From positions 1 to 20,825 of the IMG/VR virus record IMGVR_UViG_3300025127_000357: DNA of 20,825 bases. The stretch is one strand, 5' to 3'. The notes below the pieces were generated by a model. The model was not told where the DNA came from. It worked only from the letters and a program-made list of their open reading frames with translations, and did no database searches. The stretch comes from a virus. This document shows positions 1 to 9,547 of the stretch, piece after piece (positions within the stretch are counted from its first letter, which is position 1; every line of letters begins with the position of its first letter). Made by a program: the position numbers and the translations under genes.

Positions 1-15
1 TTGTATACTCGCCAT
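1..15 (-). CDS. Start of a leftward gene, cut by the window edge
   Basis: On the minus strand an ATG at 15-13 opens a frame reading M-A-S-I-Q before the window ends. A GAGG Shine-Dalgarno element lies at 26-23, seven bases before the ATG, and a sigma70-like promoter lies just upstream (42-69). Only five codons are visible, so no function can be given. It is called because promoter, ribosome site and start codon are all correctly spaced and repeat the arrangement of the next leftward gene. Confidence 0.6.
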
Positions 16-41
16 TTTATTACCTCGCTATATTTAAACCT

Positions 42-69
42 AGTATGACACAACCATTTTAAAAGTCAA
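42..69 (-). promoter_or_regulatory. Leftward sigma70-like promoter (copy 1)
   Basis: On the minus strand TTGACT (69-64) and CATACT (47-42) are separated by 16 bases. Transcription would start near 35 and reach the ATG at 15 after a short leader. The whole 28-base element, spacer included, matches the promoter at 348-375 with five differences. A TGTCACA-TTC-TGACGCA dyad (70-86) abuts the -35 box. Confidence 0.65.
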
Positions 70-86
70 TGTCACATTCTGACGCA
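70..86. promoter_or_regulatory. Operator-like 17-base dyad beside a leftward promoter
   Basis: TGTCACA-TTC-TGACGCA has the same 7-3-7 layout as the site array at 530-801 and lies directly upstream of the -35 box of the leftward promoter at 42-69. The position would suit a repressor or activator of that promoter. This is an inference from motif and placement; the left half departs from the array consensus. Confidence 0.4.
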
Positions 87-94
87 CCTAGCAA

Positions 95-325
95 TTATCT
101 GCTAGATGCTAATTTCATAAATTTTTCGTAATCGGGGTGGGCTTGAGCCTTGCGAAGCAAAGCAACACGACCACCATCTGAAAGCCTTTGTTTTTCAGAT
201 TTAAAGACATAACCTGTAAAAACAGATTTTGCCGAACTCTCATATTTATCTTTTTGACCATTGAAAATCGGTGCTTTGCCAATCGGTAAAAAGCCACGAC
301 CAATAATCCCCATTCTTGATTTCAT
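95..325 (-). CDS. Hypothetical 76-residue leftward protein
   Basis: Unrecognised small protein beginning MKSRMGIIGRGFLPIGKAPI and ending FMKLASSR. It is moderately basic, with no membrane segment or known motif visible. The open frame extends to an upstream ATG at 388, but the promoter at 348-375 lies inside that extension. The ATG at 325 has a GAGG element (334-331) five bases before it, so I take 325 as the start. The gene lies in the leftward unit, opposite to the structural genes, which in phages often means early or regulatory genes. The C-terminal text (RKAQAHPDYEKFMKLASSR) looks like a soluble helical tail. No function is assigned. Confidence 0.65.
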   Translation of the reverse strand: MKSRMGIIGRGFLPIGKAPIFNGQKDKYESSAKSVFTGYVFKSEKQRLSDGGRVALLRKAQAHPDYEKFMKLASSR

Positions 326-347
326 AACAACCTCACAATCTTTAACC

Positions 348-375
348 ATTATGGCACAACCAATCTGAAAGTCAA
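348..375 (-). promoter_or_regulatory. Leftward sigma70-like promoter (copy 2)
   Basis: On the minus strand TTGACT (375-370) and CATAAT (353-348) are 16 bases apart. The expected transcript start is near 341, giving a leader of about 16 bases with GAGG before the ATG at 325. It is nearly identical to the promoter at 42-69, including the spacer. Confidence 0.7.
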
Positions 376-407
376 GAAGTATTTTCATAGTGCGACCAAA
401 ATGTACA

Positions 408-421
408 AAGTAATAAATTAT
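408..421. repeat. 14-base direct repeat, copy 1
   Basis: AAGTAATAAATTAT occurs here and identically at 998-1011, on either side of the dyad array. Both copies are followed within a few bases by a GACC. The second copy is part of a perfect palindrome (GTAATAA-A-TTATTAC, 1000-1014). Purpose unknown. Confidence 0.6.
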
Positions 422-529
422 GACCGACTAATTAACTTAAATAATCTAAATTAATAACATCAGATTAGTTGTTTAAAGTAGGTTAATTCTGACAGAATAA
501 AAAATTAAATCAAGTAAAAAACGCATTTG

Positions 530-617
530 TGCGACATTCTGCCACACTGCGACAATTTGCCGAGTAAATGCGACACTATATCCTGCGACAAAATGCCTCA
601 TGTGACATATTGTCGCA
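530..617. repeat. Cluster of operator-like 17-base dyads (first block)
   Basis: Four copies of a 7-3-7 element start at 530 (TGCGACA-TTC-TGCCACA), 548 (TGCGACA-ATT-TGCCGAG), 584 (TGCGACA-AAA-TGCCTCA) and 601 (TGTGACA-TAT-TGTCGCA); a half copy starts at 569. The copies at 584 and 601 abut. The copy at 601 is the most symmetric (six of seven positions pair). A 17-base dyad is the usual size for a dimeric phage repressor site. Iterons for a replication initiator are the main alternative. Confidence 0.7.
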
Positions 618-668
618 CCTTATTTTGGGCGTGGGGTGCCCTACGATTTACACGCATCATTTTTTCTT

Positions 669-705
669 CCTAGATAACTCTAGGCATTAGCCCCCGAAGG
701 GGCTA
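669..705 (-). other. Tandem hairpins, one with a UUCG loop on the minus strand
   Basis: CCTAGA-TAAC-TCTAGG (669-684) is followed by TAGCCCC-CGAA-GGGGCTA (688-705), both with perfect stems. Read on the minus strand the second loop is UUCG closed by C-G, an unusually stable RNA tetraloop. Neither strand shows a clear T run right after the stems, so a simple intrinsic terminator is not certain. They lie between the two blocks of dyads. Confidence 0.5.
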
Positions 706-730
706 GTGTCTAAATTTATCTTTGTTCGTG

Positions 731-801
731 TGCGACAATTCGCCCACACCAATGTGTGTCAGTTTGCCACAGTTTCCATACAGGTGCGACTTTTTGCCCC
801 A
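731..801. repeat. Cluster of operator-like 17-base dyads (second block)
   Basis: Three further copies of the 7-3-7 element start at 731 (TGCGACA-ATT-CGCCCAC), 755 (TGTGTCA-GTT-TGCCACA) and 785 (TGCGACT-TTT-TGCCCCA). The left half is better kept than the right half, as in the first block. Confidence 0.6.
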
Positions 802-857
802 TGTAGATTTGACTTTTATTTTTAACCCTACGCTTAAACCAAGAGTAAGATTTTGAA

Positions 858-884
858 GATACAAAAACTGTATCAGATTTTTTT
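858..884 (+). terminator. Possible intrinsic terminator
   Basis: GATACA-AAAAC-TGTATC (858-874) is a perfect six-base stem followed by AGA and seven Ts (878-884). The stem is AT-rich and short, so termination would be weak. The T run is itself the loop of a second dyad (AGATT and AATCT, 875-889). Confidence 0.35.
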
Positions 885-930
885 AATCTAACCATGTTAA
901 AATTGTAGCACGATTTAAAAAATAAATCAA

Positions 931-947
931 ATGGTCAGATTGTCGCA
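931..947. promoter_or_regulatory. Lone operator-like dyad
   Basis: ATGGTCA-GAT-TGTCGCA keeps the exact right half of the array consensus in the same 7-3-7 spacing. It lies apart from the two main blocks. Confidence 0.4.
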
Positions 948-997
948 GGTGTTTTGGGGTGGTGTTCGTAGTTTGTTCTTTTTTGGAGAGTCCTAGT

Positions 998-1014
998 AAG
1001 TAATAAATTATTAC
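998..1014. repeat. 14-base direct repeat, copy 2, inside a palindrome
   Basis: The second copy of AAGTAATAAATTAT (998-1011) overlaps the perfect 15-base palindrome GTAATAA-A-TTATTAC (1000-1014). Function unknown; a protein-binding site is possible. Confidence 0.55.
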
Positions 1015-1023
1015 GACCAGCAA

Positions 1024-1078
1024 CTAGGTTATAGTATATGGCTTTCGTATACCTAGACGGGGTTTAAGGATATACCCC
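1024..1078 (+). other. Two consecutive hairpins
   Basis: CTAGGT(T)ATA pairs with TATACCTAG (1024-1056, one bulged base). Next, GGGGTTTA pairs with TATACCCC around an AGGA loop (1059-1078, one T-T mismatch). A C-rich run follows. They form the left part of a structured block that ends just before the terminase promoter. Confidence 0.45.
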
Positions 1079-1164
1079 CCACCCCCAAAAACTTGCCTTG
1101 CCGTGCACATACATATGCATCAAAAAAAATTTTAGCAAAAATTTGGACCTTGAGATTTCGCGTG

Positions 1165-1241
1165 CCCCCTTTTTGCGAGGGGGTATGCCCGAAGGCATTT
1201 CTAACCCCCTCTTCTTACAGGAGACACCCTCGGGGAGAGGG
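1165..1241 (+). other. GC-rich structured element with alternative pairings
   Basis: CCCCCT (1165-1170) can pair with AGGGGG (1178-1183). The same strand, read as GAGGGGG (1177-1183), can instead pair with CCCCCTC (1205-1211), enclosing a perfect ATGCC-CGAA-GGCAT hairpin (1185-1198). A last hairpin, CCCTC-GGGGA-GAGGG, lies at 1227-1241. The element sits just upstream of the terminase promoter. It could be a regulatory RNA of a longer transcript or a packaging-site structure; no promoter of its own was identified. Confidence 0.45.
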
Positions 1242-1267
1242 ATGCTGTAATGCTACCATAAGAACCC

Positions 1268-1296
1268 TTGTTTATGCAAGAGGTGTATGTTATAAT
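1268..1296 (+). promoter_or_regulatory. Extended -10 promoter for the terminase/head operon
   Basis: TTGTTT (1268-1273), a 17-base spacer and TATAAT (1291-1296), with TG at 1288-1289 giving the TGnTATAAT extended -10 form. The expected start site is at about 1303, only about two bases before the ATG of the terminase small subunit, so the transcript would be essentially leaderless. Confidence 0.75.
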
Positions 1297-1304
1297 TTTT
1301 TTAC

Positions 1305-1766
1305 ATGGATACAAATAAACCCTTGACAGGAAGACAAGAACTCTTCTGTCAGGAATACATCAAAGATCTAAATTCAAAGGCTGCGGCTAAACGGGCAGGC
1401 TACTCTGATAAAGTAGCTGATGCAAAGTCCTATCAGTTCTTGAGAATGGAACGTATTAAGAATAGAATCTCAGAACTTAAACAGGAATCAATGCGTAGAT
1501 TACAGCTTGATGCAGATGATATATTGAGAAGGTTAGTACGTATCGCAGATCAGACAGAACAGACAGGTGACTATAATGCTGCTATTAGAAGTCTAGAATT
1601 ATTAGGAAAACACAAAGCATTGTGGACTGATAAGACTATAAACGAAACAACTTTAGTAAATGCATTTGCATCTGGTAACTCTGAAGAAGATATACAGCGA
1701 GATGTAGAACGCTTAAAAAGAATAGCTACACCTAAACTAAAAGTCATACCAGGAGACAAGAAATGA
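1305..1766 (+). CDS. terS: Terminase small subunit
   Basis: DNA-recognition subunit of the packaging motor: it binds the viral packaging site and hands the concatemer to the large subunit at the portal. The 153 residues begin LTGRQELFCQEYIKDLNSKA then AAKRAGYS, the N-terminal helix-turn-helix signature of the Terminase_2 family (PF03592). A helical oligomerisation region follows (about 45-115), then a charged tail. Length is typical. The start ATG lies about two bases from the predicted transcript start and has no Shine-Dalgarno, so a leaderless message is likely. A long interrupted dyad lies inside the 5' coding region (1322-1353). The stop codon overlaps the ATG of a 33-codon ORF. Family assignment is from motif recognition; its place before terL supports it. 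Confidence 0.9.
   Translation: MDTNKPLTGRQELFCQEYIKDLNSKAAAKRAGYSDKVADAKSYQFLRMERIKNRISELKQESMRRLQLDADDILRRLVRIADQTEQTGDYNAAIRSLELLGKHKALWTDKTINETTLVNAFASGNSEEDIQRDVERLKRIATPKLKVIPGDKK
1322..1353. other. Interrupted dyad within the 5' end of terS
   Basis: TGACAG-G-AAGA pairs with TCTTCTGTCA across a CAAGAAC loop (1324-1351), with a C-G and a T-G pair extending the stem outward. One bulged G is the only interruption. As RNA this would be a strong hairpin right behind the leaderless start. As DNA it could be a TerS recognition site, since the P22 pac site lies inside its terS gene (established for P22 only). Confidence 0.4.
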
Positions 1767-8511: not shown

Positions 8512-8558
8512 AGCTGCCGTAAGGAGCTAATAAACTTCGCTTGCAAAGGAGGTATATT
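8512..8558 (+). promoter_or_regulatory. Structured leader of the small heat-shock gene
   Basis: The leader opens with AGCT-(G)-CC-GTAA-GG-AGCT (8512-8528), a hairpin with a GNRA-type loop at the expected 5' end, which can protect mRNA. Further on, ACUUC (8534-8538) can pair with GGAGGU (8549-8553, one G-U) and mask the strong SD AAAGGAGG (8545-8552). Many bacterial small heat-shock genes use such pairings as RNA thermometers; whether this one melts with heat is untested. Confidence 0.4.
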
Positions 8559-8957
8559 ATGACAAGCTTAGAACAATACAATCCGTTTTGGATAGGATTT
8601 GATGATATATTCAAGAGGATGAACTCATTCGAGTACACATCATTCCCACCATACAACATAAAAAAAGTAGACTCTGAAAACTATGAGATCGAAATGGCTA
8701 TCGCTGGTTTTACCAAAGATGATGTAAAAGTTAAGTATGCAGAAAATACTTTAACAATTACAGGTAAAAAGAAAGATAAACAAGACTCAAAAGAACTTCT
8801 ACATAAAGGAATATCTGAAAAGAACTTTACTAAAAAGTTTGAATTAGCTGATGACTTTGTAGTAGAAGATGCAGGGTTGCAAGATGGATTACTTTGTGTT
8901 AAACTTAAGAAGATAATTCCTGAAGAAAAAAGGGAAAAGATTATCGACATTAAGTAA
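8559..8957 (+). CDS. Small heat-shock protein, IbpA-like (Hsp20 family)
   Basis: ATP-independent holdase that keeps unfolding proteins soluble in large oligomers. The 132 residues have an IbpA-style N-terminus (FWIGFDDIFKRM), a full alpha-crystallin domain (about 30-120: PPYNIKKVDSENYEIEMAIA, GFTKDDVKVKY, KGISEKNFTKKFELAD, LQDGLLCVKL) and a C-terminal I-x-I motif (IDI, 129-131) used for oligomer assembly. AAAGGAGG ends six bases before ATG 8559, so the in-frame ATG at 8541 is not used. It is the first gene after a consensus promoter and precedes a GroES-like gene and the capsid genes, suggesting service in virion protein folding. Small heat-shock genes are known in cyanophages and other marine phages. 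Confidence 0.95.
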   Translation: MTSLEQYNPFWIGFDDIFKRMNSFEYTSFPPYNIKKVDSENYEIEMAIAGFTKDDVKVKYAENTLTITGKKKDKQDSKELLHKGISEKNFTKKFELADDFVVEDAGLQDGLLCVKLKKIIPEEKREKIIDIK

Positions 8958-8967
8958 TCTCACTTTC

Positions 8968-8994
8968 GGGGGTGCTATAAAGGTGCCCCCTTTT
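8968..8994 (+). terminator. Intrinsic terminator-like hairpin after the hsp20 gene
   Basis: GGGGGTGC (8968-8975) pairs with GTGCCCCC (8983-8990), including two G-U pairs, around TATAAAG, and is followed by TTTT. The T run is short, so partial read-through to the two following genes is likely, leaving hsp20 most expressed. Confidence 0.65.
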
Positions 8995-9006
8995 ACAGGA
9001 GAATAA

Positions 9007-9225
9007 ATGTTAGATCAAGTTAAAGTATACAAAGAACGTATGCAGAAAGTTTTGGCTGAAGCAATACAAGCCAATAATCAGCAACTACTAAGTGGTAGTA
9101 CTGATGACTATGCTGGCTACAAATTTTTAGTTGGCATAGGTCAGACATTAAACGATATGTCTGATAGATTAGAAACTGAGTATAAGCAATTATACAAAGA
9201 TATTGCAGGAGGAACAGATGAATAA
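9007..9225 (+). CDS. Hypothetical 72-residue helical protein
   Basis: Short, probably all-helical protein (MLDQVKVYKERMQKVLAEAI to YKQLYKDIAGGTDE) with no membrane segment. AGGAG lies just upstream at the expected spacing. Its stop overlaps the start of the GroES-like gene by eight bases, so the two are co-translated. No family recognised. Its place inside the chaperone cassette suggests an accessory factor for folding or head assembly, which is inference only. Confidence 0.75.
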   Translation: MLDQVKVYKERMQKVLAEAIQANNQQLLSGSTDDYAGYKFLVGIGQTLNDMSDRLETEYKQLYKDIAGGTDE

Positions 9226-9547
9226 ACTACCAAAACCACAAGGTTATCGTATGTTACTTAAACCTTGGGAACCACCAGCAGCTACATCAGGCGGAATACT
9301 TTTGTCGGATCAGACTAGAGAACTAGCCAAATTTGCATGTGTGGTATCACAAGTAGTAGATATGGGTCCAGAATGTTATAAAGATATGGACAAATCATCT
9401 ACCACATGGTGTAAAGTAGGAGACTATGTTTTAACAGGTAAGTATGTAGGACTTAAATTTAAATATGAGAATGAAGATTATTCTGTCATAAATGATGATG
9501 AAGTCGTTGCTATAGTTCCTGAACCAGATAAAATAAAGCATAGATAA
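9218..9547 (+). CDS. GroES-like co-chaperonin
   Basis: Lid of the GroEL chamber; phage versions (T4 gp31, RB49 CocO) replace host GroES so that GroEL can fold the large capsid protein. The 109 residues match the Cpn10 fold (PF00166): an N-terminal strand (KPQGYRMLLKPW, 6-17), a mobile loop (about 18-34) with SGGILL at its tip, the part that docks on GroEL, then beta strands (VGDYVLTGKYVGLKF) and the closing DEVVAIV (94-100), like DILAIV in bacterial GroES. AGGAGG (9207-9212) is five bases before ATG 9218; the in-frame ATG at 9203 lacks this. It stands just ahead of the scaffold and capsid genes, fitting a capsid-folding role. Confidence 0.9.
   Translation: MNKLPKPQGYRMLLKPWEPPAATSGGILLSDQTRELAKFACVVSQVVDMGPECYKDMDKSSTTWCKVGDYVLTGKYVGLKFKYENEDYSVINDDEVVAIVPEPDKIKHR

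Follow-up and report, generated by a model that had tools for sequence, protein, structure and literature searches.

The divergent control region and its boxes

The window, by which we mean the whole 20.8-kb stretch of DNA analysed (an IMG/VR record of a marine phage), opens with a divergent region. The leftward genes exit its left end, and the rightward genes encode the small and large terminase, portal, capsid, and tail proteins, with Hsp20 and GroES genes inside the structural module (8541-9547). A reading made from the sequence alone (the sequence-only reading) had described, in the control region, an array of operator-like dyads of the form TGCGACA-N3-TGCCACA, and all of its copies are present where it placed them (Table 1). 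With up to three mismatches this motif matches the window 10 times, where 1.2 matches would be expected. The palindrome TGCGACA-N3-TGTCGCA describes the sites better. Allowing four mismatches, nine sites fall in bases 1-1304 (starts at 70, 530, 548, 569, 584, 601, 755, 785, and 931), compared with 0.37 expected and a maximum of three in 300 shuffles, and just four fall in the other 19.5 kb. The motif is infrequent in coding parts. The right half is weak in many window boxes, which counts against the RegA interpretation developed below, and additional half-sites lie at 391 and 569.

Table 1. Promoters, boxes, and the small leftward gene in the control region (window coordinates)
Feature	Position	Strand	Remarks
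Early promoter TTGACT-N16-CATACT (TG-extended)	42..69	-	Serves the gene starting at 16
Box TGCGTCA-GAA-TGTGACA	70..86	-	Abuts the -35; centre ~-43 from the predicted start; conserved in relatives
Second promoter-like sequence TTGACT-N16-CATAAT	348..375	-	Adjoining half-site only, at 391
Putative promoter TTGATT-N16-CAGAAT	486..513	-	Downstream of the array; weaker; inferred via alignment to TGTCATACT in relatives
Array box 1	530..546		TGCGACATTCTGCCACA
Array box 2	548..564		TGCGACAATTTGCCGAG; weak right half
Array half-site TGCGACA	569..585		Right half degenerate
Array box 3	584..600		TGCGACAAAATGCCTCA
Array box 4	601..617		TGTGACATATTGTCGCA; best palindrome (1 mismatch); best conserved copy
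59-aa gene	716..895	-	Promoter 902-930; near-leaderless
Box-like sequence	731..747		Within 716-895; not kept beyond closest relatives
Box	755..771		Within 716-895; third codon positions invariant
Box	785..801		Within 716-895; GTC GCA codons invariant
Promoter TTGATT-N17-TACAAT (TG-extended)	902..930	-	Start predicted beside the ATG of the 716-895 gene
Box TGCGACA-ATC-TGACCAT	931..947	-	Abuts the -35 of 902-930

The placement of the array within a control region holds for 530-617 and fails for the copies at 731, 755, and 785. These three lie inside the leftward ORF 716-895, so the intergenic cluster is 530-617. At 59 codons this ORF is just below the 60-codon default of the ORF tool. Eleven of the 13 aligned loci keep it open, with indels that preserve the frame, and its product has no match in PHROGs or Pfam. 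Third positions of the GTC, GCA, CAA, and GAC codons are invariant at 755 and 785 while neighbouring conserved codons vary; these two boxes may therefore be dual-use DNA under a second, DNA-level constraint. Coding does not explain the array itself: one relative (G005:9271-9471, 66 aa) has a minus-strand frame that stays open across it, but in most others stop codons or frameshifts interrupt that frame.

Several further elements flank the boxes. At 618-712 a conserved block, TACGATTTACACGCATCA, precedes a strong hairpin (681-712) with a T-rich tail, possibly a terminator or small RNA; an Rfam search of window 1-1400 returned no match. Upstream of the small terminase gene, at 1174-1304, lies a block that is nearly invariant in relatives (TCTTACAGGAGACACC...CTGTAA followed by a near-leaderless TATAAT promoter); it may be a leader, or a packaging or cos site. 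Most relatives carry a small leftward gene (MKESHRI...) at the position of window 1151-1174, which is absent from the window and from two other loci (L006 and L012).

Boxes and early promoters in the phage family

The two single boxes of the window, 70-86 and 931-947, are leftward, and each adjoins, with no gap, the -35 hexamer of a promoter-like sequence that also points left. No box accompanies the rightward terminase promoter (TATAAT at 1290-1295). A search with the large terminase (TerL) yielded 80 loci, and the array region was aligned for 13 sequences that share roughly 70-92% DNA identity there. The motif is conserved in these relatives, most strongly at 601-617 in this alignment. As it is also infrequent in coding parts, neither of the observations that would have refuted the operator array of the sequence-only reading was made. 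Relatives also have a box (TGCGACAGTTTGCACAT) beside the counterpart of the 348-375 promoter, where the window has just the half-site at 391. In G001, G003, G004, and the 19.8-kb G005 the boxes recur on the early strand upstream of early genes, and the long relatives contain 11-13 TGCGACA per 52-61 kb compared with about 3.6-3.9 expected.

Boxes and promoters are coupled at a set distance. A promoter-like sequence (score of at least 9 of 13) accompanies 45 of the 62 nonredundant early-strand TGCGACA sites, compared with 26% in shuffles, and in 37 of these 45 promoter-linked sites the -35 begins 16-18 bases past the box start (2% in shuffles). Promoters at this offset mostly have a 16-base spacer. 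Both window pairs, 70-86 with TTGACT-N16-CATACT and 931-947 with TTGATT-N17-TACAAT, obey the same rule. In the fixed-offset cases the box centre lies ~43 bases ahead of the predicted start, which is where class II activators bind. These data support the proposal of an operator array, since a single spacing between box and early promoter holds throughout the phage family.

Box-free relatives also exist. G008, with 74% TerL identity, has no boxes, so such phages can manage without them, a point against the RegA interpretation. The closest isolates, the Pelagibacter phages HTVC023P and HTVC027P (~38% TerL identity), have a late block like that of the window (TerL, portal, GroES, capsid) but differ from it in having no box with up to two mismatches in the 50 kb examined of each.

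The palindrome in unrelated phages and bacterial genomes

The exact motif of the sequence-only reading mixed relatives with chance matches when searched in IMG/VR, and we used the box joined to TTGACT instead. This exact string occurs in at least 120 IMG/VR stretches, unrelated phages among them. Of 118 loci (the examined ones together with four taken from relatives of the window), 103 fall into a single linked group to which those relatives belong, and the remainder are other phages. Five near-complete unrelated phages have 3-5 palindromes each and 0 control hits, at GC contents of 0.54 (G011 and G015), 0.62 (G012), 0.41 (G013), and 0.39 (the 165-kb G014). No DNA-binding gene is common to the unrelated box-carrying phages, and that they have converged on a single operator suggests a protein of the host.

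Box plus TTGAC occurs in only 45 stretches among 85,000 bacterial and archaeal species genomes, mostly in Pandoraea, Nitrosomonas-like bacteria, Porticoccus, and other Beta- or Gammaproteobacteria. Six of these bacterial genomes have 3-17 boxes each, the clearest being two Nitrosomonas-like genomes with 11 and 17 versus 0 control hits. Nearby genes, read by eye, include TonB/ExbB, TonB-dependent receptors, PepSY proteins, and a SCO1-like gene. Literature searches on the half-site strings returned only unrelated papers, and a search for a copper regulator returned only an unrelated Bacillus operon.

The box resembles the binding sites of the RegA family. Consensi quoted in PMC5506826 are SSGNVRDNHYSNCSS for RegA, GNGRCRTTNNGNCGC for RegR, and YSCGGC(5)GWCRMA for PrrA. 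All nine window sites match at 10-11 of 12 positions for RegA, 8-11 of 11 for RegR, and 9-11 of 12 for PrrA, where the RegA consensus scored is that of R. capsulatus. No more than 0.02% of the remaining window 17-mers score as high as the median site on these consensi. Against this, RegA consensi in the literature are degenerate, and ChIP-seq of R. sphaeroides PrrA gave no strong consensus (PMC4263372).

A second line of evidence comes from the regBA operon itself, of which regB is the first gene. With the PrrA HTH as query, identical to PDB 1umq, RegA was found in 8 of 8 box-selected bacterial genomes compared with 11 of 55 random class members (Fisher p = 2e-5). Within two mismatches, a box lies close to where regB begins in 10 of 16 regBA loci; the proportion is five of eight among box-selected loci and also five of eight among evaluable loci from a random draw made regardless of box. 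The chance of such a box is ~1e-3 per 250-bp window, and the regBA stretches contain no other boxes at this threshold save an overlapping second site at L479. Quite apart from the published consensi, the boxes at regB connect the palindrome with RegB/RegA autoregulation.

A tentative view of the host comes from a Pelagibacteraceae single-cell assembly that encodes RegA. It also contains a 27-kb phage contig with four boxes (L456 and L457; contig C20 of G027), from a box-carrying relative, which is either a possible host link or possible contamination. In 146 other Pelagibacteraceae genomes there is no box with up to one mismatch, though the group has RegA. If the host is SAR11, these box-free chromosomes count against the RegA interpretation.

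A proposed host RegA-family regulator and competing explanations

We propose that the array and the single outlying boxes are operators through which a host RegA-family response regulator acts on the leftward (early) genes of the phage, and we estimate the probability of this reading at roughly two in three. RegA, PrrA, RegR, and ActR are Fis-type HTH response regulators of the redox two-component system RegB/RegA. The boxes, their fixed promoter spacing, their recurrence in related and unrelated phages, the consensus match, and the regBA link are computed; that the RegA of the actual host binds here is what we infer from them. In the proposed mechanism, the host regulator would bind the phage boxes and the phage would thereby control its early genes. 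The single boxes, touching the -35 and centred ~43 bases before the predicted start, would occupy the class II activator position. The cluster at 530-617 would offer several adjacent sites for multimerisation, and RegA does multimerise on DNA (PMC5506826). Phosphorylated RegA would probably be mainly activating, about 60:40 over repression, in which case early expression would follow the host redox state. The sequence data suggest that the window phage and several unrelated box carriers may couple the control of early genes to the energy state of their host cells. A bolder extension is that several unrelated aquatic lineages independently wired many early promoters to RegB/RegA, such that the pace or onset of infection would follow the state of the host's respiratory chain; we consider this possible, at somewhat less than even odds.

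The sequence-only reading had instead assigned the array to a phage regulator or a replication initiator, with a switch or an origin as its function. Multiple operators per genome are indeed typical of phage repressors, and two candidates deserve mention. One is a phosphoesterase encoded where the early operon ends, the product of the one Fis-type HTH gene in this phage group; its Pfam HTH_8 domain belongs to the DNA-binding family of RegA. Its gene, however, is present in the box-free G008 and absent from the box-carrying G009, G010, G011, G013, and G014. The other is an 88-aa protein (G001:14300) found in G001, G003, G004, and G005 and not in G008. Within the window's group it thus tracks the box, but like the other small early proteins searched it has no PHROGs or Pfam match. 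No repressor was recognised beside the array or in the early operons of G001, G003, and G004, no DNA-binding family is common to the box-carrying lineages, and no candidate for a phage-specific repressor tracks the box across them. A phage-encoded RegA fares no better, with nothing credible in 15 phage records searched with the PrrA HTH; the sole weak match, in G010, runs through stop codons. Bacterial chromosomes, moreover, carry the same palindrome upstream of regB. The assignment to a phage regulator is not supported; the box fits the RegA family and precedes regBA operons, and we consider a phage-encoded regulator unlikely.

Somewhat less likely again is a different host regulator that recognises the same palindrome; the box targets of the Nitrosomonas-like genomes could form a metal-uptake regulon. 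Bacterial box targets do look more like metal limitation than the classic photosynthesis and respiration regulon, yet the box marks regB in 10 of 16 loci and the presence of RegA tracks the box. Iron-uptake genes of Methylomonas also depend on RegA (PMC13274454), although direct binding there was seen only at feo and not at the tonB or receptor promoters, which counts against the RegA interpretation. Least probable, to our minds, is that the repeats mark a replication origin or a packaging site and are bound by an initiator or by the small terminase from the neighbouring gene. The 530-617 cluster is iteron-like in look, and many box-carrying contigs have their boxes close to the genes for both terminase subunits. 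Iterons of an origin would be confined to one locus, together with an initiator gene or an AT-rich unwinding element, but these repeats are spread over the early promoters; single boxes at fixed promoter spacing extend over early genes up to ~6 kb from the terminase genes, and in unrelated phages and in chromosomes the box is likewise used at promoters. We found no evidence for an origin role: most boxes are single and sit beside promoters distributed over several kb, and neither an origin nor packaging accounts for single boxes locked to promoters.

A host RegA-family regulator would place the window among systems that are partly familiar. Operators of the RegB/RegA system of Proteobacteria (PrrBA, RegSR, ActSR) likewise have inverted GCG half-sites in a 15-17 base layout, and the window palindrome is also found in front of regB. 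Unlike known RegA operators, the boxes here sit in phage early control regions, beside the -35, and form a palindrome stricter than the published consensi. We found no report of RegA operators in phages in the open-access literature. Lambda cI operators are 17-bp imperfect dyads in multiple copies, and a box centred near -42, as at OR2, can activate. The window array shares this 17-base imperfect dyad layout and copy number, but no repressor gene was identified in the phage and the factor is apparently host-encoded.

Phage use of a host two-component regulator has a known precedent: cyanophage genes are under host PhoB (Zeng and Chisholm 2012, as cited in PMC10976474). The cyanophage Pho boxes (PhoB/PhoR) are operators of a host two-component regulator on the phage's own promoters, and the window boxes are candidates for the same role. 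The differences lie in a redox rather than a phosphate signal, the fixed box-promoter geometry, the many early genes, and the several unrelated lineages. Predicted Pho boxes in a cyanophage proved unreliable without binding assays (PMC10976474), and the window sites are predicted operators of the same type, with consensus fit and promoter geometry as the observations. If the proposal holds, the little-known early-gene control of uncultured marine phages would gain a testable link to a host global regulator in several phage families. TGCGACA-N3-TGTCGCA would be a sharp operator model for RegA, the consensus of which has been described as degenerate, and the box could serve as a sequence tag in searches for phages whose hosts carry RegA.

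On bacterial chromosomes, the box regulon in Nitrosomonas-like and other genomes (L395-L414) adjoins the TonB, PepSY, and SCO1-like genes noted above, which suggests that within the RegA regulon it forms a branch for metal uptake. The box with TTGAC is present in many Pandoraea species (L336, L338, L343, L344, and others), in several of them upstream of the same gene for a small 61-aa protein.
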